Virus record (IMG/VR): IMGVR_UViG_3300008470_000008
Span: 1 to 47,738 of that record
Direction: 5' to 3' (one strand)
Source of the DNA: a virus
Length of the DNA: 47,738 nt
Below, piece by piece: positions 662 through 29,000 of this stretch. Under the pieces are notes generated by a model. The model worked only from the letters and a program-made list of their open reading frames with translations. It was not told where the DNA came from and ran no database searches. The first letter of the stretch is position 1. The number at the start of each line of letters is the position of its first letter. The position numbers were made by a program, and so were the translations under genes.

Positions 662-1651
662 ATGTACGGGAAAAAAGTAGTTAACAAGGATAATATTCTA
701 GCATTAATTAACTCCTACGATATATTTAAGAAGTATATCGTAGGGTTTGTTGATGTGGGTAGAGCATTTAAGAGTGAATTAAGAGCAGATAAAAAACCTA
801 CTTGTGTAGTTTTTAAAGGTAATACAGATTTACTTTATAAAGATTATGCAGTTACTGGAGCATTAAATTGTTTTAGTTACGTGATGCAGAGATATAGTTG
901 TAACTATTTTGAAGCATTAGAGATAGTTAATAGAGATTTTGCTCTGGATTTAGTTTCAGATATGCCTAGCTATGAATATACTCCTACAGCTTCTACTATT
1001 TATAATGTAGATATATCTAAAATAGAGACAACTCCTGCTGATATTAAGATTAGAGCACGTAAGTGGAATAATTTTGATAAGGAGTTTTGGAATACACAGT
1101 ATGAATTAACTGTAAAAGAGTTAGAGGTGGGTAGAGTTTACCCCCTTGACGCTTTTTGGTTAAATAACATGTACTTTAGAGCTGACTCAACTGCCTATGG
1201 TTATTACCAGGGGTTTAGAGATGGACGGGAATTGTGGAAAATATATCAACCTTATAATGTAAAGGCTAAATTCTTTACTAACATAGGTCCAGATGACTAT
1301 CAAGGATATGACCAACTCCCTGAAACAGGGGATAGGCTAATAATAACAAAGTCTTATAAAGATGTATTGGTGCTTAGAAGGCTGGGAATCCCAGCTATTA
1401 ATCCACCAAGTGAATCATCTACTATAAAACAAGAGTTTTATGATGCCCTATTACTACGTTTCAAGAAAGTGGTTTTATTATTTGATAATGATACACCTGG
1501 AATTAAATCAGCTATTAAACTTAACAGTTTGATAGGGATACCGTACTTTATATTGCCTCAAGATACTAAAGATTGCGCTGATTATGTGAAGAAGTATAAC
1601 TATGAATTATTAACTAATTATATAGACTTATGCTGGGAAGATATCAAGTAA
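662..1651 (+). CDS. DnaG-type DNA primase with TOPRIM domain
   Basis: A 329-residue protein expected to make RNA primers at the phage fork. The N-terminal half resembles the DnaG catalytic N-domain, with an Arg/Lys-rich stretch (RADKKPTC, about residues 42-49) followed by beta strands and a helix. A TOPRIM segment follows: LIITKSYKDVLVLRRLG (about 224-240), then VVLLFDNDTPG (about 270-280), the metal-binding DxD-like motif. The usual first TOPRIM glutamate is replaced by lysine in ITKS-KD, a variant common in primases of Bacteroidota phages. No zinc finger and no fused helicase are present, so a helicase must be supplied elsewhere. It overlaps the resolvase gene by 22 bases. Confidence 0.82.
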   Translation: MYGKKVVNKDNILALINSYDIFKKYIVGFVDVGRAFKSELRADKKPTCVVFKGNTDLLYKDYAVTGALNCFSYVMQRYSCNYFEALEIVNRDFALDLVSDMPSYEYTPTASTIYNVDISKIETTPADIKIRARKWNNFDKEFWNTQYELTVKELEVGRVYPLDAFWLNNMYFRADSTAYGYYQGFRDGRELWKIYQPYNVKAKFFTNIGPDDYQGYDQLPETGDRLIITKSYKDVLVLRRLGIPAINPPSESSTIKQEFYDALLLRFKKVVLLFDNDTPGIKSAIKLNSLIGIPYFILPQDTKDCADYVKKYNYELLTNYIDLCWEDIK

Positions 1652-2214
1652 CAATTCCTAATTGGGTTAGTAGTTATCAGAAAGCTGCTAAAACAAATCC
1701 TAAGTATTGGGAATGGAAGGATAGAGATAAACTACCTATTAAACACAAAAATAGATTAAGAATAAACCCACTTATAAGGGGCACTAAGATATTTTGTTGT
1801 GATGAAGAGGAAGAGAGATTTCTAAAGAATACCAAATCTGCTGGAAAACCTAACCTTTGGGTTATGAATGGACAGGATTTGTATAATGCCATGATGAATT
1901 GGCGTATGCGTAAAACTGTTGCTAAGTATTATCATACTTACTTCTCTAATTATATTAAAGAGCAACTAACACCTATAGATATACCAGAAGGTAAATTTCT
2001 ATCTATTTCATGTGATATATATGAAGTAAAGAGAAAAATGATGCCTGATGTGTCTAATATGTGGTTGTTAGAGAAATTCTTTGAGGATGCTTTACAGGAA
2101 TGTGGAGTTATCCCTGATGATAGCCCTGACTATGTAATAGAGAGTGGTAGGAAAAGATACCATTGGGTAGAAGAAGAAGATAGGAAACTAGTGTTTACTA
2201 TCCAAATAGTTTAA
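1630..2214 (+). CDS. RusA-like Holliday-junction resolvase / endodeoxyribonuclease
   Basis: A 194-residue protein. The C-terminal 90 residues carry the RusA pattern: a strand (KFLSISCDIYEV, about 120-131), then a conserved-Asp segment with PDVSNMWLLEKFFEDAL (about 138-154), then GVIPDDSPDYV (about 158-168), matching the D..N..K..-D.L....I.DD arrangement of metal-binding aspartates. RusA enzymes cut four-way junctions and resolve branched replication or recombination DNA before packaging. The N-terminal 80 residues are basic and unassigned. The gene begins inside the end of the primase gene, indicating co-translation. Confidence 0.78.
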   Translation: MLGRYQVTIPNWVSSYQKAAKTNPKYWEWKDRDKLPIKHKNRLRINPLIRGTKIFCCDEEEERFLKNTKSAGKPNLWVMNGQDLYNAMMNWRMRKTVAKYYHTYFSNYIKEQLTPIDIPEGKFLSISCDIYEVKRKMMPDVSNMWLLEKFFEDALQECGVIPDDSPDYVIESGRKRYHWVEEEDRKLVFTIQIV

Positions 2215-2528: not shown

Positions 2529-2822
2529 ATGAGAAAAATTACAATTGTTTCAACAAAGATTGACGGTAAAACAGAATTAAACTCAGGTGCAACAACTTGG
2601 GGAGAATTACAAACAGAATTAGGGGCTAACAGTATTGATAGCAATAATATGAAAGCTATGGAGAAAGTTTCCAAAGTAACATATGATAGTGCTGCTGCAG
2701 TACTACCTACAGGTGACTTTGTATTATTCCTTACACCTGGAAAGGTGAAGAGTGGAAATGAGGTAACAACTCATTACACAGAACTATTGGAGCAACTAGA
2801 TGCTATTCAAGCAGCTATTTAG
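2529..2822 (+). CDS. Ubiquitin-like (beta-grasp) modifier candidate
   Basis: A 97-residue protein with a beta-grasp-like order: strand RKITIVST (2-9), turn, strand GKTELNSG (13-20), helix TTWGELQTEL (22-31), a variable middle, then LPTGDFVLFLTPGKVKSG (59-76). The last piece resembles the final hairpin and strand of ThiS/MoaD/ubiquitin-like proteins ('L..GD.V.l.P...SG'). After Gly76 there is a tail of 21 residues, so a modifier of this type would need trimming before adenylation. A JAMM peptidase encoded 1.2 kb downstream could do this. The neighbours are E2-like, JAMM and E1-like proteins, the gene set of bacterial ubiquitin-like systems including PRTRC cassettes. The fold is inferred by eye; a small structural or unrelated protein cannot be excluded. 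Confidence 0.55.
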   Translation: MRKITIVSTKIDGKTELNSGATTWGELQTELGANSIDSNNMKAMEKVSKVTYDSAAAVLPTGDFVLFLTPGKVKSGNEVTTHYTELLEQLDAIQAAI

Positions 2823-2837
2823 TATTTCATATATCAT

Positions 2838-2866
2838 AAAGAGGGGCAAAATGCTCCTCTTTTTTT
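2838..2866 (+). terminator. Rho-independent terminator or attenuator inside the ubiquitin-like cassette
   Basis: A 10-bp stem with one G-T pair, AAAGAGGGGC / GCTCCTCTTT, has a five-base loop and runs into eight T residues (2859-2866 region). It lies 15 bases after the modifier gene. No promoter is visible in the 20 bases before the next start (2887), so downstream genes are probably reached by read-through, giving more modifier than enzyme transcripts. Confidence 0.75.
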
Positions 2867-2886
2867 AATTTTTAAAACAGAGTAAG

Positions 2887-4059
2887 ATGGCAGAAGAAGA
2901 TGATTTTGCATTACTAGAAGCCATATTAGCTGATGATAGTAATACAAGAGTAATAAGTGGTACTGCTACCAATCCAGTGGTAGTAGAATCCATAGCAGAT
3001 ATAGATATACACGTAGTGGAACCTATAAAGGAACCTACAAAGGAAGAAGTTGTAGTAGAAAAACTAGAAACAACTATAGAAAAAAGAATTAGAAGAACTC
3101 AAGAATTAACAGAGGAATATCATCCTGGTGCTTGGGACTTTCAAAAGTGTATAGATAATGATTATTTAGGTAGACCTAATAATTCAGCTGTATATACTTT
3201 AACTATCCTTTTTCCTAAACTCACTATGACTAACAGTAGTAATGATTCACATGTTATACAAGATTTATATGTAAGTATGTGTTTTACTGCTAGTATGCAC
3301 CATCAAAGTAATATTTATGGTGTAAGAGGTAAGTTAACTGGTGCAGAGTATTTTAGTAGTTATGTACATTCCCACTTATCTCCTAGTGGGATAGATAGGG
3401 ATAGAGGTACATCTAAGATAACAAGATATGGTGCTTTCTGCTTAGGTGGAGGTACAGAACTAATTAGGTTAGCTAACAACTTAGTACTAGATGAGTGGAA
3501 TGAAGAACTATTTGCTTCAACACTACTACATTTACATTCATATGTTGATTGGGAATCTAGCGAAGGAGGACCTTATATGAGTATGCATAATATATCTATA
3601 AATAGAAGTTCATCACGTTTGAATAATGCCCCTGCTACATCAAATAGAAAGGAGGCATATATGTCATTGTTACGTACTATGACATACAATATGAAGTTAG
3701 AGTTAGATAAAAGTACTACTTCAGCTAAATTTGTATTAGCAAATGTAGATGAGTTAGAAATAGGGTTAATACCACATACTCCATATTATCAATATAAAAA
3801 TGAACTGGGTGTATATTCTAATATAGTTACAGGTAATAACATACCAGAGTTAAATACTAAAATTAGAGCAGCAAATAGCTGTCAAGAACCTTTTATGGTA
3901 TTTAAATCAGAGAACATTAGGTGTCAAGTAGATGAAGTTATAGACCCTAATTCAAAAACTGATGCAGTAAGCAAAGTACCGCATAGAGATATAACTACAT
4001 ATGTACAACAAGAATTAGAAAAAGAGATTAATAATTATTATTTAAAAATTAAAATATGA
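2887..4059 (+). CDS. Prokaryotic E2-like protein
   Basis: A 390-residue protein. After an acidic, low-complexity N-terminus (1-70) comes a core of strands (YTLTILFPKLTMTN, 103-116; IQDLYVSMCFTAS, 124-136), then YVHSHLSPSG (159-168), YGAFCLGGG (181-189) and a helical stretch ending LHLHSYVDWESSEGGPY. Strand meander, HxH-like 'YxHSH' motif and FCLG cysteine fit the divergent E2-like proteins of bacterial ubiquitin-like operons described by Iyer, Burroughs and Aravind. Cys185 would be the thioester cysteine. Its stop overlaps the start of the JAMM gene (ATGA), which supports a joint role. The assignment is from motif memory, not a search. Confidence 0.6.
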   Translation: MAEEDDFALLEAILADDSNTRVISGTATNPVVVESIADIDIHVVEPIKEPTKEEVVVEKLETTIEKRIRRTQELTEEYHPGAWDFQKCIDNDYLGRPNNSAVYTLTILFPKLTMTNSSNDSHVIQDLYVSMCFTASMHHQSNIYGVRGKLTGAEYFSSYVHSHLSPSGIDRDRGTSKITRYGAFCLGGGTELIRLANNLVLDEWNEELFASTLLHLHSYVDWESSEGGPYMSMHNISINRSSSRLNNAPATSNRKEAYMSLLRTMTYNMKLELDKSTTSAKFVLANVDELEIGLIPHTPYYQYKNELGVYSNIVTGNNIPELNTKIRAANSCQEPFMVFKSENIRCQVDEVIDPNSKTDAVSKVPHRDITTYVQQELEKEINNYYLKIKI

Positions 4060-4940
4060 GTTTAGTAGACGATAAAAAAGTACATAGTAGAACTGTTATA
4101 CCTGTTACAGGTAAGGCAGAGTTAACTTTAGGTAAAGAAGTGATGATGAAGATTCATTACCTACATCAAAGAGTTACCAGGAATACAGAATGGAGTGGTG
4201 TTTTAATGTATAAAACAGTATCAGGTGGAGTAGAAGACCCAGGAAATTGGAAATTAGAAGCAGATGATTTTATCCTTATGGATGTAGGAACAGGTTCTTA
4301 TACTGAGTATGACTTTGATACAGATGATGTTTATTCATTTGATAAGTATACAGATGCAATGTTAGATGATAAGAGATTAGGACATATTCATACTCATCAC
4401 AGTATGGATACTTTTTTTAGTGGTACTGATATGTCTGAATTACATGAGAATGCGCCAAATCACGCCTATTACTTAAGTTTAATTGTAAACTATAAGGAAC
4501 CAGGATTATGGATGGCTAAAGTAGCATTTGTAGGAGAAGAGACTTCAGTAGGGTCTATTGTTAGAACTAAAAACTCTATTCTTAATATGTTAGGATTTGG
4601 AGAACCAGTAGAGGAAGTAGTAAATAAAGTTACTCCTATATTATATACTATAGATTGTGATTTAATTATTGCAGATGAGATGAAACCTTTCTATGATAGA
4701 GTTACAGAGATTTGTAAACCTAAAGTAGTAGCTACTCCTTATAGATATACTCCTCCAGGACATTATAATGGTACTTCTATGCATCAACAGCGTTTTAAAG
4801 GTGCTAATTTGAAAAAGAAGAAAGCAACTAAAATGGATTGGAGTGATTGGGATGCAAGAGCAGGTGTTGCTCCTTCATTATTTAACCAATTACCACCTAA
4901 CAAAGTAGTTCAAAAAGAACTGCTGGGAGTTACAGTATAG
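4056..4940 (+). CDS. JAMM/MPN-family metallopeptidase (deubiquitinase-like)
   Basis: A 294-residue protein with a complete JAMM zinc motif: upstream Glu in TEWSGVL (Glu45), then His112-x-His114-x7-Ser122-x2-Asp125 within GHIHTHHSMDTFFSGTD (109-125). These are all the catalytic and zinc-binding residues of the Rpn11/AMSH/RadC superfamily, so it should be active. Such enzymes remove or process ubiquitin-like modifiers at isopeptide or C-terminal bonds. The likely substrate is the modifier at 2529-2822, which has a 21-residue tail beyond its candidate C-terminal glycine. The C-terminal 80 residues are basic and Pro/Lys-rich, with no assigned domain. It overlaps the E2-like gene by 4 bases. Confidence 0.85.
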   Translation: MSLVDDKKVHSRTVIPVTGKAELTLGKEVMMKIHYLHQRVTRNTEWSGVLMYKTVSGGVEDPGNWKLEADDFILMDVGTGSYTEYDFDTDDVYSFDKYTDAMLDDKRLGHIHTHHSMDTFFSGTDMSELHENAPNHAYYLSLIVNYKEPGLWMAKVAFVGEETSVGSIVRTKNSILNMLGFGEPVEEVVNKVTPILYTIDCDLIIADEMKPFYDRVTEICKPKVVATPYRYTPPGHYNGTSMHQQRFKGANLKKKKATKMDWSDWDARAGVAPSLFNQLPPNKVVQKELLGVTV

Positions 4941-4957
4941 CTGCAATATATCCATTT

Positions 4958-5323
4958 GTGTGTAAGTTGATATCAACTAACCTAAATGAAGGTGCAGAAA
5001 CAACAATTACTCAACTATTTAAAACAATAGGAGAATCATCAGAAGTAGAGATAGAGTTTTTAGTAGATGTAATGGAAGAGGAGTTTGAGAAATTTTTAGC
5101 TACTCACTTTAATGTTCCAGTACCTACTCAATTAGATTTATTCTGTGTATCAATTGGGATTTTAAAAGTGTGTGAAACATATGTAGATACGTATTTGTAT
5201 CAATGTATGGATAACATGTTAGATGTATATACAAGCATCAAAATAGACGCTGACTTCAAAAAGAAGGTTACGCAATTAACTAATATAGAAAATTTAGCAG
5301 AATGGACAGCAGTAGCAACATAG
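4958..5323 (+). CDS. Small helical protein in the ubiquitin-like cassette (121 aa)
   Basis: An acidic, helical protein with no recognised domain. The start is GTG at 4958, 17 bases after the JAMM stop; a downstream Met would remove much of the protein, so GTG is preferred. Its last 22 bases overlap the ThiF-like gene, showing tight translational coupling. Cysteines at several positions (about residues 2, 68, 74, 87) do not form a zinc motif. It may be an accessory factor or substrate of the cassette; nothing more can be read from the sequence. Confidence 0.6.
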   Translation: MCKLISTNLNEGAETTITQLFKTIGESSEVEIEFLVDVMEEEFEKFLATHFNVPVPTQLDLFCVSIGILKVCETYVDTYLYQCMDNMLDVYTSIKIDADFKKKVTQLTNIENLAEWTAVAT

Positions 5324-6015
5324 ATAATAAAAAAGCAAGATTCAGTGACGCTGCCTGGTATAAGGCAGGTCCTGAAGATATCATAGTTGGAGGTGTAGGT
5401 GGAATTGGTTCTTGGGTAGCATTATTGCTATCCAGAATTGGTCACACTTTACATATCTACGATAATGATGTAGTAGATGATACTAATATGGCAGGACAAC
5501 TGTATCCTATTAGTGCAATTGGACAAAGAAAAGAGAATGCAGTAGCAGAGTTAGTAAGACAATTCTCTGGTAGTACTGTAAATGTAAATGGACTATATGC
5601 TGAAGACAGTATGGTAGCTCCAATTATATTTAGTTGCTTTGATAACATGACTGCAAGGAAAGTTATGTTTGAGAAATGGGCAGCAGAAGAAGACAGAGAG
5701 TTATTTGTAGATGGTAGAATGCTTGCAGAAACAGGTATGATATTCTTAGTACAAAAAGGAGAAGAGGAAGCATACAGAGCAGAGTTGTTTGATGATGCTG
5801 AGGTGGAAGATGCACCATGTTCCTTTAAAGCCACTAGTCATTGTGGAGCTTTTATAGCTTCTATGATGGTAGCAGGTTTAAATAACTATATGGCTAACAG
5901 ATATATAGATGCAGACCTTAGAGCAGTAGATTTTAGAACTGACTTTGAACTACCTCTGTTAAATGTACAAGCCATAGCAATTCCAGTAGCGGAACCAGAA
6001 GAAGTATTAACTTAA
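5302..6015 (+). CDS. ThiF/MoeB/E1-like adenylyltransferase
   Basis: A 237-residue Rossmann-type protein. The nucleotide-binding loop GVGGIGSWVA is at 31-40. IYDNDVVDDTNMAGQ (52-66) is the E1 pattern D.D.V..SN..RQ that binds ATP, with Gln66 retained and Arg replaced by Gly or Ala. SCFDNMTARK (111-120) is the late 'D...R' motif. A Cys at 173 (DAPCSF) or 181 could accept the modifier. It lacks the adenylation-domain zinc CxxC pairs and any second domain, so it is a minimal E1. E1-like enzymes adenylate the C-terminal glycine of beta-grasp proteins; the partner here is the modifier at 2529-2822. Confidence 0.8.
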   Translation: MDSSSNIDNKKARFSDAAWYKAGPEDIIVGGVGGIGSWVALLLSRIGHTLHIYDNDVVDDTNMAGQLYPISAIGQRKENAVAELVRQFSGSTVNVNGLYAEDSMVAPIIFSCFDNMTARKVMFEKWAAEEDRELFVDGRMLAETGMIFLVQKGEEEAYRAELFDDAEVEDAPCSFKATSHCGAFIASMMVAGLNNYMANRYIDADLRAVDFRTDFELPLLNVQAIAIPVAEPEEVLT

Positions 6016-6026
6016 AACAATAATAA

Positions 6027-7043
6027 ATGTTAAATATAAAAAATATAGGAGATAATAGAATACATTTAAGCCATAATAATAGTAGTTGGAAGACTATATT
6101 AGTGGATAAAGTAGATACATTTATACTAGCCAATACGGAGAAACAGGAATATACTCCTGTACATGCTATTGATTTACCCGCAACTTTAGCGTTAACTACA
6201 GGAAGTAGACCTCGTAGAAGACACGGCTGTAATACTTATTTATTTAGAGCTCTAGAAAACCAAATGACTATATTACAGAGTAAATTAAATATATCTTCTT
6301 ATACTATTCGTTTTATGTTTGATACATCTATGCGCCTAGCTTGTCTACCAGATAATCAACGTAAGATAAAAAAGTATGAAACTAAGACTAATATAATGCA
6401 GAATATAGCAAAAAAATTCATGCGTAAATCTTTAGAGGTCTTAAAAGATGCAGTACATAGAAGTATAGAGCATACGTTACCTAATATGAAAAATGCAGGT
6501 AGATTTAATCCATCACAATCGTTTTCATATGGTAAGTCATATAATGATATAATAAAGCATACGCTACATGGTACAGGTTGGAGTAGTGTACCATTACGTA
6601 CCTTAGGATATCGTGTAAGTACAGGAGCATGTTATGAGTTATCTAGAACAGGTTCTTTTGAACCTATTCCTTTATACGTAACAGTGGTAAAGTCAATCCA
6701 CATACCATATTTAACATTATGTATGGTTTTAGGTGAAGACCCTCAAAGTTCTATTTATGAACTATGGGTTAATCCTGAGTTTGATGTAGTAAGGTCTAAG
6801 TATAAAGGGTTACGTCCCCATTATAGGAAACATATAAAAGCGGTAGCTAATAGACAAGGTATTCCTATTATAGAGAAGGATAATATCCAGGAAGAACTTT
6901 ATGATAGTATATCACTTCCTGCGGAGGTAAAGAGTATCAAAGGAAGAAGAGAGTGGTTAGAAGAATTCACAACAGAGGTGAAAGGACACCTAGCGTCTAA
7001 AAGTCTCTTACAGAGAGGATATAGTATTGAATTATGCGCATAG
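6027..7043 (+). CDS. Hypothetical protein (338 aa), last member of the ubiquitin-like run
   Basis: No family recognised. The protein is basic in the middle (several Lys/Arg-rich helices, about residues 120-170) and has a predicted beta-rich part (about 200-260) containing LYVTVVKSIHIPYLTLCMVLG. It starts 11 bases after the E1-like gene and overlaps the exonuclease start by 10 bases, so it sits in one transcription unit with both. It could be a ligase-like or target-binding component of the cassette, or a replication protein. Confidence 0.6.
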   Translation: MLNIKNIGDNRIHLSHNNSSWKTILVDKVDTFILANTEKQEYTPVHAIDLPATLALTTGSRPRRRHGCNTYLFRALENQMTILQSKLNISSYTIRFMFDTSMRLACLPDNQRKIKKYETKTNIMQNIAKKFMRKSLEVLKDAVHRSIEHTLPNMKNAGRFNPSQSFSYGKSYNDIIKHTLHGTGWSSVPLRTLGYRVSTGACYELSRTGSFEPIPLYVTVVKSIHIPYLTLCMVLGEDPQSSIYELWVNPEFDVVRSKYKGLRPHYRKHIKAVANRQGIPIIEKDNIQEELYDSISLPAEVKSIKGRREWLEEFTTEVKGHLASKSLLQRGYSIELCA

Positions 7044-7759
7044 CAGTAATTGATGCAGACCCTATTGCATATATATGTAGTAAGGACACACTAGAAGAAA
7101 GTTTATTAGGGGTAGATAGCTTAATTGCTAATGCCCTTAATGTTTCTAGGTGTGACGCTTATTATATGTTTTTATCAGATTCCCCTTATTTCAGACATGA
7201 AGTAAATAAGGAGTATAAAGCTAAAAGACCTACATCTAAGTTACTTTATCTTAAAGAAATTAAGGAGTACCTTAAGAGTAATTTTGGTGGAGTAAGTTAT
7301 CCAGGTTTAGAAGCAGATGATTTAAATGCGTATGTGATGATACAAGCTAATAAAACACCCAGTAATACTTATATCAATATGTCTATAGATAAAGATGTAT
7401 TGAAATCAGTATGGGGAAAGTGGTTCAACTTTAAGAAGTTTGAATCAGGAGAAACCTCTAGGCAAGATGCTACTAGATTTATATTTATACAGACTCTTAT
7501 GGGAGATAGTACAGATAATATCAAGGGTATTCCAGGAGTAGGAGAAAAAAAGGCTGAAAAACTCCTTGAAACAACTAATGATATAGGTCTTATGAGAAGT
7601 ATAGTACTAAATACGTATTGTACTCATTTTAAGTCTAGTGCAGTAGGTATATATGAGTTTCAAAAGAACTTTAGGCAAGTTTATTTACTAAGAAATAATG
7701 AAGACTTCTTAAATGAAGTAGGTTATATACCTGAGTTACCAGAACTTAGGTCAATATAA
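7034..7759 (+). CDS. FEN-like 5'-3' exonuclease / flap endonuclease
   Basis: A 241-residue protein matching the T5 D15/T4 RNase H type. Acidic metal ligands appear in order: AVIDADP (Asp7, Asp9), EADDL (93-97), SIDKD (117-121) and LMGDSTDNI (156-163). The last is followed by the helix-hairpin-helix GIPGVGEKKAEKLL (165-178) that holds duplex DNA. The length is right for a stand-alone phage enzyme without a polymerase domain. It would remove RNA primers and flaps, complementing the primase upstream. Confidence 0.88.
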   Translation: MRIAVIDADPIAYICSKDTLEESLLGVDSLIANALNVSRCDAYYMFLSDSPYFRHEVNKEYKAKRPTSKLLYLKEIKEYLKSNFGGVSYPGLEADDLNAYVMIQANKTPSNTYINMSIDKDVLKSVWGKWFNFKKFESGETSRQDATRFIFIQTLMGDSTDNIKGIPGVGEKKAEKLLETTNDIGLMRSIVLNTYCTHFKSSAVGIYEFQKNFRQVYLLRNNEDFLNEVGYIPELPELRSI

Positions 7760-18800: not shown

Positions 18801-20059
18801 GCTTCATCTACAAATATAACATCCATAGAACGGGCAGGAGCATCATATTGATTATACTTATCTATAGTGAACTCTCCTGTTTCATTATCCCTCTTCATAC
18901 CTAACATCTTAGCTACAGACCCACTTGTAGTACCTTCAATGTGCTCTACTTTTGCAAATAGATTCTTAGTAGCTTTATTAGAAATAGCTGTAACTCCTAC
19001 TTTTGCGTATTTTGTAGGTAGCTGTGCTATGATTTCAGCAACTACAGTAGTTTTACCAGTACCTGCTTTTCCAGATAACACATGTACATTAGAGCCAACT
19101 CCTTTTTTAAATTGAGCTAAGAACTGAGATATCTCATCTATAACTGTAGTTTGAGTATCATTAGCAGCTACGAAATCAGTTTCTCTTTTACCTGTTGCGT
19201 CTACCTTAGTTACCTCTGCATTAGCAGTAACTTTCATACCTTTTCCTAAGTAGTACTTATTAAATGATAAGTTTTCAGCTAATGCAAGTGCATAGTGTGA
19301 GTTATGGTTAGCTACTGTACCTACTAAAGACTTAGCAGCATCAAATACAGCTTTAGTTTTCATCTGGTTGTTACCAGTAAAGAACTGTAAACTACGTAAG
19401 TCATTTTTATCTGGGTAAATCTCTGAAGCTAAATCAGATAACCATGGGTCATCAAGTGGAGCCATAACAGTAGTATATGCTGAAGGATGTAATAACATCT
19501 CTCTCATCATCTCTAATCTCTTATTTTCTAAACCTTCTTTACCATCATCTTTTCTATAGAATACTTCTCCTGTTTTCTTATCTACACCAAAGTTAGGTAG
19601 GATAACAAAAGATTTATCAATATCAAAATCGGAACCAGTTTTAGTAGTAATAGCACTAAATGCTACCGTAGTATCACCTGCTTCTTCAGGTAGTATACCT
19701 ACAATCTCAAATGCATCATTAGATGATAAGTTATTTGGAATACGGTATGATAGTCCCTCAAGTACACTCTTAGGAATCATCTTTATGATTTCAGTATGAG
19801 TTTTTCCTTTGATATTATAACCTGCAGCTTTTAACTCTTTCATTAAAAAACTATGAGGCATTAAGATTTGAGCAGGATGTACAACACCTTCTTCATCTAT
19901 TCTCATAGGTTGAAGTTTCTCAGAAGGGTCTTTTAACCAAACTATACCATCTTTTACAGTAGAATCCATATCTACCTCAACTCCAGTAAACCCAAAGTCA
20001 GATAATTGAACCATAGCTCCACCTAATTGCTTAAGTTTAACTGCTTCTTTGGTTAACAT
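15827..20059 (-). CDS. Virion RNA polymerase, catalytic (beta'-like) half with inserted SF1 helicase
   Basis: A 1410-residue protein. Residues 55-150 resemble the beta' double-psi barrel: VHPAQILMP, then LSYRIPNN, then KTGSDFDIDKSFV with the Mg-binding DFDID at 144-148 (bases 19616-19630), the catalytic signature of crAss-like/YonO-type single-chain polymerases. From about 300 to 740 (bases about 17840-19162) lies a complete RecD/Dda-like SF1B helicase: GKAGTGKTT (330-338), FVDEAS (416-421), IYIGDKGQLPPI (439-450), TSHKSQGST (682-690), YTAITRA (717-723). Polymerase-like sequence resumes near 780 (LDEDGREIAGTLLAFMNAIVDAAK). It should enter the cell with the DNA and transcribe early genes. The ATG overlaps the stop of the 3068-residue gene (ATGTTAA). 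Confidence 0.82.
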   Translation of the reverse strand: MLTKEAVKLKQLGGAMVQLSDFGFTGVEVDMDSTVKDGIVWLKDPSEKLQPMRIDEEGVVHPAQILMPHSFLMKELKAAGYNIKGKTHTEIIKMIPKSVLEGLSYRIPNNLSSNDAFEIVGILPEEAGDTTVAFSAITTKTGSDFDIDKSFVILPNFGVDKKTGEVFYRKDDGKEGLENKRLEMMREMLLHPSAYTTVMAPLDDPWLSDLASEIYPDKNDLRSLQFFTGNNQMKTKAVFDAAKSLVGTVANHNSHYALALAENLSFNKYYLGKGMKVTANAEVTKVDATGKRETDFVAANDTQTTVIDEISQFLAQFKKGVGSNVHVLSGKAGTGKTTVVAEIIAQLPTKYAKVGVTAISNKATKNLFAKVEHIEGTTSGSVAKMLGMKRDNETGEFTIDKYNQYDAPARSMDVIFVDEASMLNEQGVDLLNSLGIPIIYIGDKGQLPPIRKEGDPNDGKDSPIFDKEDSKLFERVRQGEKSPILPFADHFWKNSRVENPVLNPGTERKSVVTDEGSLIFGGKDLVQHALPLYKKGIETNNPNLVKTVVYRNATRQNVNEFVRKNILEDSSIPFQPKELLMFNNSWVIDEDLQYDNSDEVQIINSVPGTSPEGFDMYYITLAEATIPVIAPSSKKAFEQQVRALFNKAYTFPVNSPQRKSAFAAAWELDGRYADIDYSYAITSHKSQGSTYNTVIVYEGDIMSITKADNKAKSQSMYTAITRAAETTLVLDGTQTDSTLIKEAIDNSLEVAGKTTKVNKPKKIVRNAKPVAQNSPTSQLSNKLDEDGREIAGTLLAFMNAIVDAAKDPYITRANINQFTANTAFMLVRAGISREWIVSFMGQPIIKDLVALTAAAEGRFAEKKRNAAGIEISPLDQVLKKYGYTKGPGEIYSENMKGTDGEIRMSTKGLQSYLEYDAEYNKTQIDILGQFLEWQSKAKSLNELVKISKSDTDGATKNQATARLRENLLNKIIHDNAIVNADKLLGYDVVGGNAEFNGSRFTGTYYENSIRAAREMFAGMFISNSPAVEATSDLMASLAGIVHLVPTTENETLLNDLANEFYALTATDTSTFRLDGEAKPKADGSPSSYSDSQVGLHALLFGNSTTESLVTRLSTAKKGVENENLLIQALEVRPGNKNTPGAIFLPKSESLKEAKDDLYLAWEELQSTNKELAEDLMKYSFYASGMSKAIGSFYEHIPMDFLAEKNYSDQINHKISEYSNPNALVRKIDSVYKHMSENDKLVPVITDKVFKPMKVKDELISIPTSDAFIVTPLEGANYIAGLDVKGDYVFKRFVKRKFKSADEYNNITTTIVLYQQMGLTPKGNAVYMRTNKLGYSKNGVIFKEYNGKNNNASIFKENRSVPLHVSVMPYANNTVPNQIPVSEFDATKMVIKKTDLTEEEAVESLNFCIDV
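17840..19162 (-). other. SF1B (RecD/Dda-like) helicase domain inside the polymerase gene
   Basis: This is a domain record within the 1410-residue protein (about residues 300-740). All expected motifs are in order: Q/I (Walker A, 330-338), II (DEAS, 418-421), III (GDKGQLPPI, 442-450), IV-like (RVRQGEKSPI, 475-484), V (ITSHKSQGST, 681-690) and VI (AITRA, 719-723). The catalytic Lys, Asp, Glu, Gln and Arg are intact, so ATPase activity is expected. Confidence 0.85.
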
Positions 20060-23000
20060 TGAGTGTAGCTTATTCTGAATCTTTTTAGAAATAGGTAAGA
20101 ATCTAAATTTACTCCTGAGATTATAGCATTAATATGATTATCAGAAATCTCTCCTGCAAATTCTGTAGCTAGAAGAGCACGTAGTTTAACATCATCTCTG
20201 CCATTCTTAGTATACCCTATTTTATCTTGAAAAGATTTTAATCCTAAATTAGATAATTCAGATATTACATTATGGTAAGCTTCAAGTAGTTGTTCTCCTT
20301 TAAGGTCTCCATATTGACCTGTAGGCTCTATGACAGCTAATACGTTTTTAACAGTTTGTGAACCTACTACAGTAGGCTTAGTACCTTTAGATGATAAATC
20401 TTGTTGTAAAAACAATCTCTTATAAGATAATTGAGTAGTATTAAATGTAGGATTAACTAATAAATTACCGTTACCATCAGAAATATCAGTAATACCAACA
20501 CCACCTGCTTTTTTACCATCAAGTACAATAACATGGTCTGGTCCTCCTCCCTCAAGTCCACCTTTTTCCATGGCTAACCTAAGTTTATCTAACGCAGTAC
20601 CTTGAGTTAGTATAGGTAGTAGAACTGCTTCAGATTGTTTGTTATAATGTAAAGCCATTACGTCATTACTGCTCTTAACTAGTTCATTATGCACAGTTTT
20701 TAATGGCATAGCTAGTAACTTAACTTGTTTAGGTGTAGATACACCTTTCTCCATAGCATCCTTAGCATCTTCATGTGCTGGAGTCCATTTACCCCAACTA
20801 TTCATTCTTTCTTTATATACATCTAAAGTAATCCAAGCTTGTGCATCAGTTACATTGACATCTAAATAAGGTTTAAATAACTGTTCTAATTCTGCAACTT
20901 TAACTCCTGTAGCTTTTTCAACTCTAGCAAGGTTTACTTTATTGAATTCACCAGTTTCACTATTACCAAAGAATTCTGAAGTAATACCATCAATATTAGC
21001 AATAGTTGCTGAAGTGTAATAAGGTCTAACTGCCCAATTACCTTGTGAGTTCTTATAAATCCTAGCATCTTTTCCAGATGCACTAGTAGAAGGTACTCTC
21101 TTTCTAAAATCTGCAAATAAATCATTGTTAGACCATTTAGGGTCTTTAGCTTTTACTTTAAATAAAGCAGGGTCTCCATTAAATATCTTAGTTTGTTCTA
21201 TATTACCTATTAAAGAGTTAAGAGTGTAATCAGCAATAGCATTGTGGATGTTTCCATCTCTATCTTCTATTTCTGTTTTATCTATTACTCTGTTAGTTAA
21301 TTTATTACCTTGCTCTGTAACTAATCCTGTTTCTACAGCAGTACGTATATCTTGTTCTACTAAGGTAAGGAATGTAGTACGTAAGTAATCCTTAACTGCA
21401 GGATTATCATCCATAACCTCTCTTGAAAGAGGAACTATGTTACCTGAAGCATCCATTAAGCCTAATTCTTGAAGTAAAGTTTCTCCTGTTTCTTTGTTTA
21501 CTTCATCTGTAACAGCATCTAATAAATCAGGGAATAAAAAAGATTTAAAGGCATTACCTTCAATTCTATCCATATCCTTTCCAAATTGACCTTTTCCTGG
21601 TTCTACTGGATAATAGTGGTAATAAATTTGTTGTTTTTCATCTGCTAATGGTGGAATAGCTGCATCATGTTCTGTAGCTGGTTGCCCATAGATAGTTTTC
21701 TTAGCTACATCCATTCTGTGTAGTTCATCTGCTAAGTACCCTGCAAGGATACTTATTGCAGCAGGATTACTATTAGTGAACTCTAATGATTTAGTTTCTT
21801 CATTAAAAGTTACCATAGACCTTCTTAACTTAGGTCCTTTGAAATAGCCTTGTTGACCTTTATCAGCTTCAGCAAGTCCTATATATAAACCTTTTAGTTG
21901 TTTATTAAATTGGTCCATATAAGTATCAGAGAACTTCAAGTTAGATGCTTTATCTCCTTTATCTCCTCTACCTTCTTCTTTAAAGTTACCGTATAAATCT
22001 AAACTAAAATTAGCTCTATTTTTAACACCGTGTGTTTCATCTAATAATTCTCTTAACCATACAGAGTTTCTACCCCATAAAGAACTTTGTAAGTCCTGTA
22101 GGTGAGAAAGGTCTCCTGCTTTAAATTCAGCAACTAGTTTAGAGAAACTGTTATTATCTTGATATGCCCAGATTTGATTACCATCTGGTCCCAAGAAAGA
22201 GCTTTCACCACTAACTTTTCTAAATTCTCCTTCTGCTCTAGCTAAAGTATTCTTGAAGAATTTATCTTCATCTAGTAAAAGGTTAGTTTTATTAGTTAAC
22301 GGTTTACCTGCTAATTTAGGTAGATTAGATGTAGCCTTCATTAACTTGTTAGTAAGTACATTAAACGCTTTAAGTTGATGTAACGTAGGCTTTAAAGGAT
22401 TAACAATCATATTCTGAGAGAATAGTAGTTTTAAAATACCTTTTTCAGACATAGTTACTCCTAAAGCAGTAAGTGTATCTCCAAATGCTCTAAGTACGTC
22501 ATCTGTCATAGACTGTAACTTCATACCTTCATCAATAGCATCTAGTAGTATTGTTTTTTGTTTAGCTATATTTTCTAAAGCTATTGAGTCATATACAGTT
22601 TTACCTTCTACTTCAATACCTACACGAGAAGCAAACTCTGCTGCCCATGTACCTCTAATAGTAGACTCTTTAGAGTTAATATCAGATTCACCTATTTTAG
22701 ATGTAATATTTCCTGGTCTTCCTTCAACAAGGTGGTTAGTATACTTACCTCTAGTTCTTGAAAAAGTAAAGAAGAATTGAGTCTTAATATACTCAGGCAT
22801 CTGCTCTAATCTTCCTATTAAGTGCTGTAACTCAGGCTTGTAAGTAAATTCTGCCTTCATAGCATTAACCATTACTTGATAACCATCTTCCATCTCACCG
22901 TCCTTAACTACAGCTATTTTATCAGCAAGTAAAGTTTCTAATGAGTTATATGTTACACTAAAGTCATTAAATCTAGGTAGACCTAATAATGTATCTCTAT

Positions 23001-26000
23001 TATAGATAGGCTCTCCATCCTTGTAACCTTTAATATCTGGAGTCATAGCTACTAAGAACTTAACCATCTTAGTGGCAGTATCTTTTCCTGAAGACTCATA
23101 AGATGACTTTAAGAAACTTAGTATACCTTCATCAGTTTCAACAGCATCTTCTTTGTTGTCTATCTTCTTAACTAATTTTAAGTCAAATTCTTCCTTAATA
23201 TAGGCTTTAATATTGTTTTCCCAGAAAGGAGCAAGAGTCATCTCTTTAGTAAAGAGTGCTTTAATTCTTCCTAATTTCTCTTTTGCTGCAGCATCAGTAG
23301 GGTCTGCAAGTAAAAGGGACTTTGTTGATTTATAAGTACGTTTTAATTCATTGATAATGTTATTAGCATCATACTTATCAATAGTATCTAAAGATTTAAC
23401 ATTTTTAAAAGCTAAGTAAGCCATTTGCTTAGTAGTATCTCTAACTTCTTGAGCAGAGTACGTAGGGTGTTTAGCAGAAAATGCTATACTTCTAGTAATG
23501 CTAGGTTTTTTAGTAGCATATTTACTTCTACTGATATCAGAAAATAACTTTCTAGCTGTAGTCTTATTAGAAAATACACCTGTAATCCAGTCCATTAACT
23601 TTTGAAACAGTCCTTTGATACCTGGAGAGTAAGAGTAATGTCTACTAGCATATGTAGGATTAGCCATATAACCCATAAAATCATCTGCTAACCTTTCTTC
23701 ATAATAAACAACAATAGCTTCTGGTTTCTCTATTCCTACATCTTCCATGATAGTAGCAATGATACTCTCTGTAGGTTTAGCATATGACTTAATAGCTTCT
23801 CCTATTAAAGAAGTTCTTTGTTCTTGATTAAGTAGAGTTCTAAATACTGCGTGAAATGCCTCATGATAGGCAGTACCCATCTCAGCTTTTTCACTAATAG
23901 TAATCATTCCGTTTTGAAATAATCCAGCTATTACCTTACCATCAGATAAGAGACCAATATAGTCAGTTACTAACTTAGTAGCAATTTCTGCAGGAAGTAA
24001 AGTATTAATATGAGCTATCTCAGCTTCATGTCCTGGTTTATTAGGAGTATGTGATACTGCTGCAGAAGGAGTATAAGATTTAAAAGCAGATTCACCCTCT
24101 ACTTCACCATCTAAAAAGTCATCTAAATCATTATCTTCTTCCTCAGTTAAATTTACTTGAGTACTAATATCAGCTATGATAGCTTCTTTAATTACTTGGA
24201 TTTCTGGAGTATCCTTAGATGGTACTATACTTAACTCAGCTCTTTTCTCAGCTACCTGACGTAGGAAAGTCATGAAGTTAACATTATTAGCTGTCATCTG
24301 GTCTACTACAGCATCTAACTCTCTAATAGAAGATGCTTCACTAATGTATTTCTTAGCGTCATATGCTGGTGGAGTCTCTACTGGAGCATTCTCCATAGTA
24401 AGAGGAGATACTTTATTAACTATACTACTATGTTCTAATTTAATTAATGTATCAGACATAGGAGATTCAAATCCTTCATCTATATCTACAAAGTCATTAG
24501 TTAATATAGACTCCTCAAGTGTAATTACTTTACCTTCTTTAGAGTAAGTAGTACTTAAAGCTAGTATATTAGTAGATGCTACCTTGATTCCATAAGCAGT
24601 CTCTGTAATATAACCATATGTACTTTGCTGGTCTGCCCATTTCTTAGTTTTAGTATCAAACTTACTAGGTCCATATATATTACTAGCTGTGTATTGTTGG
24701 TTTTTAGCGTTTAACTTAATGTTCTTAAAGTCAATTATATGAAGCTCTCCTTTTTTATCAATAGCAGCTAAATCTAATGTACCACCTACACCATCAAATC
24801 CAGTTCTTTTTCTTTCTTCTTTGGTGTATCTCTTATAGATAAAGAAGTCATTAGAAATAATAGACATACCTTGGTCTAATAATTCTCCTTTGATTGCAGT
24901 AAACGTGTCTATTAAGTATTTAAATTCTTTTTCAGTAGTGTTTAGTAAATAAGAATTATTACTCTTATTCATAACATCAGCCTCAGCTTTATACTCACTT
25001 AAAGTCTTAGGTTGAATGTTAGGGTCAAATACATCTCTACCTATAATATCTACAAAGTTACCTACTACAGCACCTTGAGTCATATTATCATTAGAATCTT
25101 CTTTTTCCTTATTTAATCTTTTAACTAAAGAAGACTGTCTCTCTAGCATTAAGCCTTTACCTTGATAAGTACTTACTTTTTTTCCATCTATTACTGCATC
25201 TACAACTGCAAAGTCTTTAGCATCTGCTTGAATAGCAGCTATCTTACTTAACGCTTCTTCTTGTGTATTTACAATAGGACCTTCAACAACTACATCAGTA
25301 CTCACTGGAGTAACTATACTTCCTTCTTTAACCTCAGTAGTAGAAGCTTTAGATACTGCTGATTTAACTACTTGTAAGTTAGCATTGTAAATAGGTACAG
25401 GCTGAATAAATAAATTCCCTTCTGGTGTAGCTTTAGCATTAGTGTATAATACACCATTAGCATCTAAGTATTCCTTATAGGCTTTATCACCAAGTCTTTG
25501 TACATCAACTTGTCTTCTTCTATTTTCTATTAAATGATTAATTACTAAATCAGCTCCTTTAGGAGAAGATAATCTCTTTAAATCTATTTTCTTATCACCG
25601 TATACTAATACAGCTGTGTTTTTCTTACCCTTCTTTGTAGTAGCTGCTTCTATGTATAATCTAGAAGACTTCTTAGAACTAGTTACTGCCTTACCTTCAA
25701 ATACTAAATGATTAAGTAATTCAGCATAAGTCATAGTGTTTAATGGTAGAAACTTAGCTAAATCAGATACTCTAGGGTCTTCGTCTTTAGTAATAGCTTC
25801 TATAGTTGCATCATTTAAACCTTGTTTAAGTATCTTACTATCTGTAAGAATCTGTACATATAGAGAATGTATAATTTTAGCTTCAGACATAGCTAAGTTA
25901 TCTACGTGGGCTCTTAATGGGAATACCTCTCCATTAGCTTTTTTCACTAATGTGTAGATAGCTCCTGGTGTAGCACTTTTTAAGTGAGCTAAGTCTCCAT

Positions 26001-29000
26001 TTTGTTCTCCATCATTATTAAAGTAGCTATCTGTAGAATCCCCATACATATACTGGATACTACTTGCAGTTCTTCCTGTTTCAATAGAAATAGTATTCTT
26101 AGTAAAGTTACCATTAGAGTCTTTAGTATGATTTAAAGTGCCTCCAGTTTTACCTACAAATGTAGTAGCTACTTTTTGCCCTTTAAAATGTGCTTCAAGT
26201 ATAGTTCTTTTATCTTGAATAACTTGAGCCATTTGTGCAGCTTGTAATTTAGCATCTTTAGTATCTAAGAAGAAAGAATCATCATGTATACTTAATGTTA
26301 AATCAATGTCGTTGTGTGTTACAGGTACACCGTTTCTTTTTAATGCCCCTACAATAGGAATTTTACCTACTAACTCTTCAGGAATAACTCCTGAAGCTAA
26401 TGCTGTTTGAATATCTTTATACTCCTGAGACCCTGCTGCGGCTTGAGCATCTATAAATTTATTGTGAACTGTGAATTCAATATCTACTCCAGTTAAGCTG
26501 AAGTTATACTCTAAGAAAGTAGTTAATGCTTTATTCTCTGGAGTATCTGCAGCATCTGTCATCATTTCCTTATTGTTGACAGATAACCAAGCCAAAGGTG
26601 TAATTTGAGTAGTAATATATAAATCTATTGCTCCTTCATCTTCTCCATCAATGTTACCATTGTCATTAGGAGGAGTTTCTAGTTCTACGTGATTTACAGC
26701 AGCGTTTTTAGTTCCTTGATGGTCTTTATTCTCATCTCTGGATTCAGGAGTTTTACCCTGTAATCTCTTTGCTTTATATGCAGCAAGTGCTTTTTGTACC
26801 TCAGGAGTTTGTTCTTCTAAGGTAGTTTCAGATAAAGCTATAGATGTTTCTAAAGCCTGCATAGACTCATCAGAAGTTAAGTTTTTAGTAGCCTCATCAA
26901 TAACCTGTTCTTTTTCTTGGCTACTTAATCCATCATTTAACTTTTCTTCATTAAGAGATTGCTCATCTTTTTTCTTAGCAGTATCCTTTTTCTTTTTACT
27001 TTCTTTTTTGTTAGTTGCTATTTGTTCCTCTAGGAAAGCTTGTCCAGCTACAGAAGTCATGTGGTTAATCTCCTGTAAGTAAGTACCTTGATAATGTTGT
27101 AACCAATCTAATTCAGACTTAGCTACGGATAAATCATCAGCATAAGTACCGTTTACTGCCTCTAAAGCTATTTTATCTTCTGTAGTTAATGTAGCTGCTT
27201 CTAACTCAGCAAATGCTTTTTTAGAAGACTCATTTACAGCTTTTTTATTCTCTACAGCTACTGCTAACTTTTCTTTAGCAGTAGGAGTCATCTTACCATT
27301 TTCCATTTTCCACTCTGCAGACCTAATCCATCTATCTGTAGATAATGTTTGTACTCTGTAGTCAAAAGCTACCTGCCCATGGTCTGATAATTTATTAACA
27401 TTAGGCATTTTAGCTGTTAAATCAGCTATCTGTTTATTTACTTCATGTGTCCTAGCTTCATATTTCTCTACTAGAAACTGTAATTGTGTAATTGGTTTTA
27501 CTGTAGCAGGTGCGTATTTCTTACTATTTTTCTGAAAGAGTTCTCCTACTCTTCTCATTCCAGCTATATGCTTATCAATATTTGCTTTAAAATCTTCATC
27601 AAATCCATGCTCTGCCATTTCCTCTGGAGTAGCATCTTTAAGGTCCTCCATGTTCTGAATAGCTAATTCTAAATTACCTACCTCAGAAGAGTTATACCCT
27701 GCATCAAATTCTATCTGTACTTTAGCAGCATTAGTACCTCTCTCATCTTCAGCCTGTACTGCTGTGTTTAAAGCGTCTAAATTCGCTGCAATAACTTCAT
27801 TTCTAGTTAAATGCTCTTTAATTCTTCTATCTACATCATTAGAAAAGTCAGTTACCCCTGATGCATGTCCTAATTTAGTAGCTACTTTGTTCTTAAGTTT
27901 TTGAGCCATTTTAGTTTGACTTAAACTTCCAGCACCTTGCATAGCCATACCACCAAGACCACCAAAAAATGCAGCAGTCCACATTTCTGAATCTCTAGTA
28001 TACCCTTTCATTCTTTCTGCTAAAGTAGTGTCATCAGGGTCTACTAAACCAGCATGGATATCAGCTACTAGTTTAGCTTCTTCTCCAACTACAAATTTGT
28101 AAGATTCTTCAAATCCTTCTGAAATAAATTGTGATGCAGCATTTTTACCACCCATAGCAGCAGATTTAACTATAGAGTTACCTGTAGCTCTAGCTAACTT
28201 AAAAGAACCAATAGCTTTAGCAGGACTCATTCCCCTACCTAACATAATATATTGTCCTATATCTTGTAAAGCCATAGCCCAGTTAGCCCTGTAAGAAAAT
28301 GCAGCACCATCTGCAGCATTTCTTTTAGCCTCAGCTTCTGACATACCTTGGTCTATGTACTCATCATACTTTTCTTTAAAGACACCATTAGCCTCCATAG
28401 AAGACTCAATATGCCTAGAAACTATACCTTTATGTACTGCACTAGCAGTTTTTGTACCTGCTGCACCTACCTTAGGAGCTTTAGCTACAACTTTAGCAGC
28501 TAATTTACCGTATTTACCTGCCTTAGCAGCATTACTTAATAACTTAGCACCTTTACCCACTAATCCAACACCTTTAGCCCAACCAGCTACAGGTATCATA
28601 ATACTTACAGCAGATGCTAGTGATACTCCATTAGAGAACCACCAAGCAGAATCTTCATAAGCAAACCTTCCTTTACTGTCAGGGTTTAAATGAATAGGAG
28701 CATTTTTAGCTACACCTTCATTCATCTCTGCAGCCCAATTTGATACTGCATTATTCCAATCATCTTCTTCACCTTCTGTAAAAAAGGATTCCCAGTCCAT
28801 TAAATAACCAGCACCTTCAATAGCACCATATACTATTTCAGAAGCAGCTTGCCAAGCAAATCCATAAGCTTCTCCTAAGAAACCTTGTTCATCTGCTAAC
28901 TTAACTTGATATGCTTTTTGTTCTGCTTTAATCTTTTTATCATACTCACCTACTAAGTACTTCTCTCCTTTATGAAGTTGAAAATCATCCCCTAGCTTAT

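Follow-up and report, generated by a model that had tools for sequence, protein, structure and literature searches.

A predicted ubiquitin-like conjugation cassette in the replication operon of crAss-like phages

A crAss-like phage carries, in one operon, genes for a ubiquitin-like protein (Ubl), an E2-like protein, a JAMM metallopeptidase and a minimal E1. Together they are predicted to form a self-contained pathway in which the Ubl would be processed, carried as thioesters and conjugated to target proteins, a reading to which we give a probability of about 0.8. Ubiquitin-like protein tagging is best known from eukaryotic cells, and bacterial Ubl conjugation has mainly been studied as antiphage defence. 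Here the phages themselves keep the complete set with its catalytic residues intact, including the cultured human-gut phages crAss001 and DAC15. Laboratory strains therefore allow a direct test of whether a bacterial virus attaches a ubiquitin-like modifier to proteins, and to which ones.

The window, i.e. the whole stretch of DNA that was analysed, corresponds to a virus record of 47.7 kb and is crAss-like. Matches to its 'stabilization' virion protein come from 105 phage records, with crAss001, Cellulophaga phi14:2 and further classified Crassvirales among them. Judging by hallmark virion and replication genes that it has in common with classified members, the source is a Crassvirales-like phage. 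The plus-strand replication block contains a primase, a RusA-like resolvase, the cassette, a 5'-exonuclease, a UDG-like protein (assigned from sequence appearance and an annotated crAss001 homologue) and ribonucleotide reductase (Table 1). An earlier note on this DNA had placed a full Ubl-E2-JAMM-E1 set in the replication operon at 2529-6015, and the four genes do lie there, between the resolvase and the exonuclease. The end of the unit was wrong, as it extends to 7043 and includes orf338. In every gene tested, dN is lower than dS. Elsewhere in the window, a 3068-residue minus-strand ORF (20053-29259) adjoins ORFs of 1410 and 927 residues, all encoding very large proteins.

Table 1. Features of the cassette and its flanks in the window
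Feature	Position	Strand	Remarks
DNA primase	662..1651	+	Left flank of the exchangeable slot; phrog_12622, E 1.1e-42
RusA-like resolvase	1630..2214	+	Left flank; phrog_1682, E 2e-9
Pro-Ubl modifier, 97 aa	2529..2822	+	Beta-grasp residues 1-72
Ubl C-terminal motif KVKSG, last residue Gly76	codon 2754-2756	+	Followed by a helical tail of 21 aa, whose removal is predicted
Intrinsic-terminator-like hairpin and T-run	2838..2872 (hairpin 2838-2862)	+	Between Ubl and E2
E2-like protein, 390 aa	2887..4059	+	UBC-fold core ~61-224, extra C-terminal domain
E2-like catalytic-type Cys185	codon 3439-3441	+	H163 upstream
JAMM metallopeptidase, 294 aa	4056..4940	+	E45, H112, H114, S122, D125
orf121	4958..5323	+	Starts with GTG; C-terminal helical domain split from the JAMM protein
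Minimal E1 (ThiF/UBA fold), 237 aa	5302..6015	+	GVGGIG 31-36, D54, D56, K77
E1 Cys173	codon 5818-5820	+	Invariant, 99/99
orf338	6027..7043	+	Fast-evolving fifth gene, directly after E1 in relatives
5'-exonuclease	7034..7759	+	Right flank of the slot; phrog_107, E 2.1e-40

On its structural model, the Ubl is a ubiquitin-like modifier with a conserved glycine at the end of the fold, and covalent attachment is predicted. The AlphaFold model (mean pLDDT 76.9) has the element order b-b-a-b-b and aligns with ubiquitin in VIA-align at Z 8.9-9.2 over 70-71 residues, with an rmsd of 2.2-2.6. Against 1ubq the Z is 8.9, and model residues 2-75 superpose on ubiquitin 1-76. The beta-grasp fold that the earlier note had supposed for the 97-residue protein, and on which its proposal depended, is thus borne out by the model. 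No consistent family emerged when 66 Ubl relatives were scanned against Pfam.

Gly76 is invariant in all 107 non-redundant Ubls, is the sole residue conserved above 97%, and nearly always ends an x-K-S-G motif. The tail beyond it varies from 1 to 252 residues in these proteins and is never absent; since every Ubl has at least one extra residue after the glycine, maturation is predicted. The model is least confident at residues 75-78, where the SG passes into the tail; this is what a flexible end should look like, and the tail helix comes next. Seventeen Ubl genes stop 1-5 residues past the glycine, and in 14 of these a small separate ORF comes next, two of the 14 matching the tails of fused relatives. 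Where the Ubl gene ends near the glycine and the tail ORF is separate, the natural gene break coincides with the predicted processing point. In phage cr106_1 (L006, 3749-4949) an HNH endonuclease gene lies just after the Ubl KSG codons and parts the Ubl from its tail.

The Ubl gene is followed by a hairpin in 67 of the 98 loci with a gap of at least 35 nt, compared with 0.9% of dinucleotide shuffles, while equal stretches upstream of Ubl have a terminator-like hairpin in 1 of 98. Most E2, JAMM and E1 genes overlap their neighbour or directly adjoin it, with median spacings of -62 and -4. A hairpin directly after Ubl and tightly packed enzyme genes suggest that the modifier is made in excess over the enzymes, and the hairpin itself predicts more Ubl transcript than enzyme transcript.

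The 390-residue protein appears, with moderate support from its model, to be E2-like with a UBC fold. Cys185 is invariant in 113 of 113 relatives, H163 is conserved in 110 of 112, and N116 is invariant or nearly so. The model (mean pLDDT 81) consists of a helix, a four-strand meander, a short strand, Cys185 and two helices, the same succession as in a UBC domain. Classical E2s, with their HPN-C spacing, have H and C closer together than this protein does. In a viral structure library the strong matches are confined to relatives, which include a crAss-like virus and cr128_1. An alignment of the E2s is too divergent for a contig scan. Foldseek found nothing significant in the PDB (best E 0.42), the protein has no Pfam match, and a scan of 60 E2 relatives gave no consistent family. 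These searches would suit a reading in which the protein is not an E2 and the Ubl is transferred by the E1 alone or used non-covalently. We consider this improbable, since almost all of the best 50 VIA rows are UBC-fold proteins (E2, UEV, RWD-like; Z 4.6-6.4), the invariant cysteine follows the beta-meander as in E2s, and the gene co-occurs obligately with the rest of the cassette. Of the earlier claim for an E2, the cysteine stands, but the fold is only moderately supported, with Z at most 6.4.

The JAMM peptidase has every catalytic residue, as had been read from the sequence before. E45 and HIHTHHSMDTFFSGTD (H112xH114x7S122xxD125) make up the E..HxHx7SxxD pattern, and all five residues are essentially invariant in about 110 relatives: E45 in 110/110, H112 in 109/110, and H114, S122 and D125 in 109/109 each. 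The match to Pfam Prok-JAB is below the cut-off (E 0.0021), and among solved structures JAMM1 is the closest in sequence (E 0.016). The 121-residue protein had been put forward as a candidate for a missing part. It is instead the split-off C-terminus of the JAMM protein, being 41% identical (E 4e-27) to residues 289-405 of the JAMM in the related locus L013, and the two are fused in relatives. This rules it out as a ligase; no E3 ligase was recognised.

The minimal E1 with an ATP loop is likewise confirmed. It matches Pfam ThiF (E 4.6e-17), has the GGVGGIG loop, and its residues G31, G33, D54, D56, K77 and C173, which include the adenylation residues, are at least 97% conserved. Among solved structures its profile matches UBA5, the NEDD8 E1, ThiF, Cap2 (E 3e-5) and BubCD (E 0.0017). 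Public records mostly name the E1 a 'thiamine biosynthesis protein' and its partner genes 'hypothetical'. Its nearest NCBIfam families are ThiF, which would suit a sulfur-carrier pathway: the Ubl would form a ThiS/MoaD-like thiocarboxylate for nucleotide or tRNA thiolation, with the JAMM releasing the carrier. There is precedent in sulfur pathways with a JAMM and a ThiS-like protein (PMC1779556). Such a role is very improbable here, as an E2-like partner with an invariant cysteine is always present, no rhodanese or thiazole/molybdopterin genes are found among the cassette genes, and the Ubl motif ends in SG, not GG.

Group I introns usually lie at conserved catalytic stretches of well-conserved genes. 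One is found in the E1 gene of L013 (8420-8936), and others in the JAMM genes of L079 (6160-6372) and Flavobacterium phage Fpv1 (L001, 5024-5269), the last scoring below the curated threshold. The positions in L013 and Fpv1 are conserved catalytic stretches.

The gene order Ubl-E2-JAMM-E1 is kept in crAss001, DAC15, Fpv1 and every recruited locus uncut by contig ends. The E1 alone recruited 80 viral contigs, all of which carry the four genes in order if long enough. Recruiting with the JAMM alone added 78 new loci; 73 are complete and five end before E1, all through contig-end cuts. The two sets share contigs and are not fully independent. As the order holds in all untruncated loci, the set exceeds chance. 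None of these loci keeps JAMM and E1 without Ubl and E2, a pattern that would have counted against the proposal in the earlier note. A search with the primase, which lies outside the cassette, gave 80 contigs, many of them short: five with a complete cassette, one truncated, 74 with none, and no other partial sets. Among records recruited with a virion gene, the E1 is present in 5/6, the exception being a 36-kb fragment. A whole-record search of ten primase-bearing, cassette-less contigs, run without a positive control, found no E1 or JAMM elsewhere in them, though the E1 search did match 5/6 other records.

Annotated phages with a cassette E1 are Steigviridae, Flavobacterium Fpv phages, bajarodcaudo and Dulem virus 41; the p-crAssphage and phi14:2 records are not among the annotated-phage E1 matches. 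A host-genome scan gave only two contigs, both in MAGs and probably phage. L090, a 12-kb contig in a Clostridium MAG with a complete cassette, is most likely a misbinned phage contig.

orf338 is a candidate target-recognition factor or substrate. The ORF immediately downstream of E1 belongs to its family in 27 of the 81 loci examined, and gp75 of crAss001, which occupies this position, is remotely related (hhalign probability 82%). orf338 is 38% identical to its L013 counterpart, with dN 0.65 and dS 1.49.

In the proposed pathway, the pro-Ubl would be made first, probably in excess of the enzymes owing to the hairpin after its gene. The JAMM would then cleave it after Gly76 of ...KVKSG. The E1 would adenylate Gly76 and hold the Ubl as a thioester on Cys173, from which it would move to Cys185 of the E2 and on to amines of target proteins. 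Targets may be chosen by the extra domain of the E2, by orf338, or by both. The JAMM may also be able to take the Ubl off its targets again.

The position of the cassette is an exchangeable slot. For the slot with ALTERNATIVES, 26 contigs span primase to 5'-exonuclease: 11 hold rIIA and rIIB, nine a DUF2201 metallopeptidase/VWA protein and an ATPase, five the Ubl cassette and one (L201) no module, only lysozyme and RusA. The modules do not co-occur in any of the 26. Steigviridae phage cr116_1 (L277, 20607-24763) has rIIA/rIIB where crAss001 has the Ubl cassette. In another, cr108_1 (L281, 7279-14335), the primase-UDG interval encodes an ATP-grasp protein, a COOH-NH2 ligase, a C26 peptidase, a glutamine amidotransferase and an amidoligase. 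The crAss001 cassette lies at the place matching this amidoligase cluster, which is possibly another peptide-bond-forming modification module. Individual examples are L244 (11791-16672), with rIIA/rIIB in the same operon slot, and L208 (11857-14217) with eight similar contigs, which have the DUF2201 metallopeptidase/VWA protein and ATPase.

Since the slot is exchanged with rIIA/rIIB or other modules, its position in the replication operon does not by itself point to replication-protein targets. Conjugation may be real but directed at replication or virion proteins of the phage itself, in assembly or replisome control, and the setting among primase, RusA, exonuclease, UDG-like and ribonucleotide reductase genes agrees with this, as does preservation across diverse phages. 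However, the cassette is altogether missing from relatives that share this primase and exonuclease, so that replication machinery as such can do without it, and the L201 site is almost empty; we regard own-protein targets as unlikely. The rII proteins protect T4 against exclusion. Because the same slot holds rIIA/rIIB in relatives, the purpose of the conjugation pathway is most likely host takeover or counter-defence, to which slot position lends about even odds. The full proposal is more tentative and falls a little short of even: crAss-like phages may run reversible Ubl conjugation for takeover or counter-defence, with the cassette as one interchangeable conflict module and an orf338-type protein picking the targets.

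Judging by the features tested, the cassette is distinct from PRTRC, and among bacterial Ubl conjugation cassettes it is a variant carried by phages. The PRTRC cassettes found on plasmids and ICEs (PRTRC C, B, A and ThiF) have the same relative order of Ubl, E2-like, JAMM and E1 genes. The analogy drawn earlier is not supported, however, if taken as membership. Against the PRTRC_ThiF model the E1 scores 33.7 bits, a weak match given the cut-off of 144.75, and neither the E2 nor the Ubl profile matches PRTRC B or C (hhalign probability 0.1% for E2; no Pfam/NCBIfam match). PRTRC E2s carry an absolutely conserved His on the C-terminal side of the Cys but none before it (PMC1779556, row 6d), whereas the window E2 has its His upstream, with no conserved downstream His listed. 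The PRTRC JAB has an N-terminal alpha+beta domain; the window JAMM lacks JAB-N, and its catalytic E45 is near the N-terminus. The PRTRC partners ParB, E and F were not found among the cassette genes, and long variable Ubl tails are a feature of the phage cassette, unlike PRTRC.

The Bil (ISG15-like) and Bub antiphage systems also have Ubl, E1, E2 and JAB components. The crAss001 E1 matches the PADLOC BilD model (E 2.5e-5), as the window E1 does BubCD. The PADLOC defence models (E1-E2, JAB, BilD) give weak matches to the E1 and JAB and nothing for Ubl or E2. This gene content and these matches would be consistent with cargo against competing phages (superinfection exclusion), Bil/Bub-like in effect. 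That use is quite unlikely, given that the cassette sits in the replication operon and not in a variable accessory region, and that its E2 and Ubl have no sequence match to defence families. Bil and Bub are defence loci, whereas the set described here is phage-borne and its Ubl has a single-Gly KSG end with a tail. Type II CBASS (Cap2/Cap3) shares the E1, E2 and JAB logic, including the Cap2 E1-domain match, but the phage set has no CD-NTase or E1-E2 fusion and has its own Ubl.

The phage cassette is unmentioned in PMC7886860, PMC6235969, PMC10172136 and the jumbo-phage survey PMC7824862, and no description was found in the open-access papers searched. The lambda tail-assembly pair I/K consists of a JAB peptidase and a phage Ubl extended at its C-terminus (PMC1779556), but lacks E1 and E2 and belongs to tail assembly. 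The Xanthomonas jumbo phage PhiXhv-15 (L088, 2817-6693) has, in the neighbourhood of DNA ligase and topoisomerase, an E1, an E2-like protein (HPHM..CLG; 892 aa, Cys-rich ends) and a Ubl-like protein, the E2 and Ubl being assigned by inspecting motifs by eye. Its Ubl-like protein ends in ..SGG without a tail, and no JAMM was recognised nearby, which fits, in this one lineage, a need for the JAMM in maturation. Cassettes of the same type are also present in PhiXhv-12, PhiXhv-16 and Erwinia Ep032.
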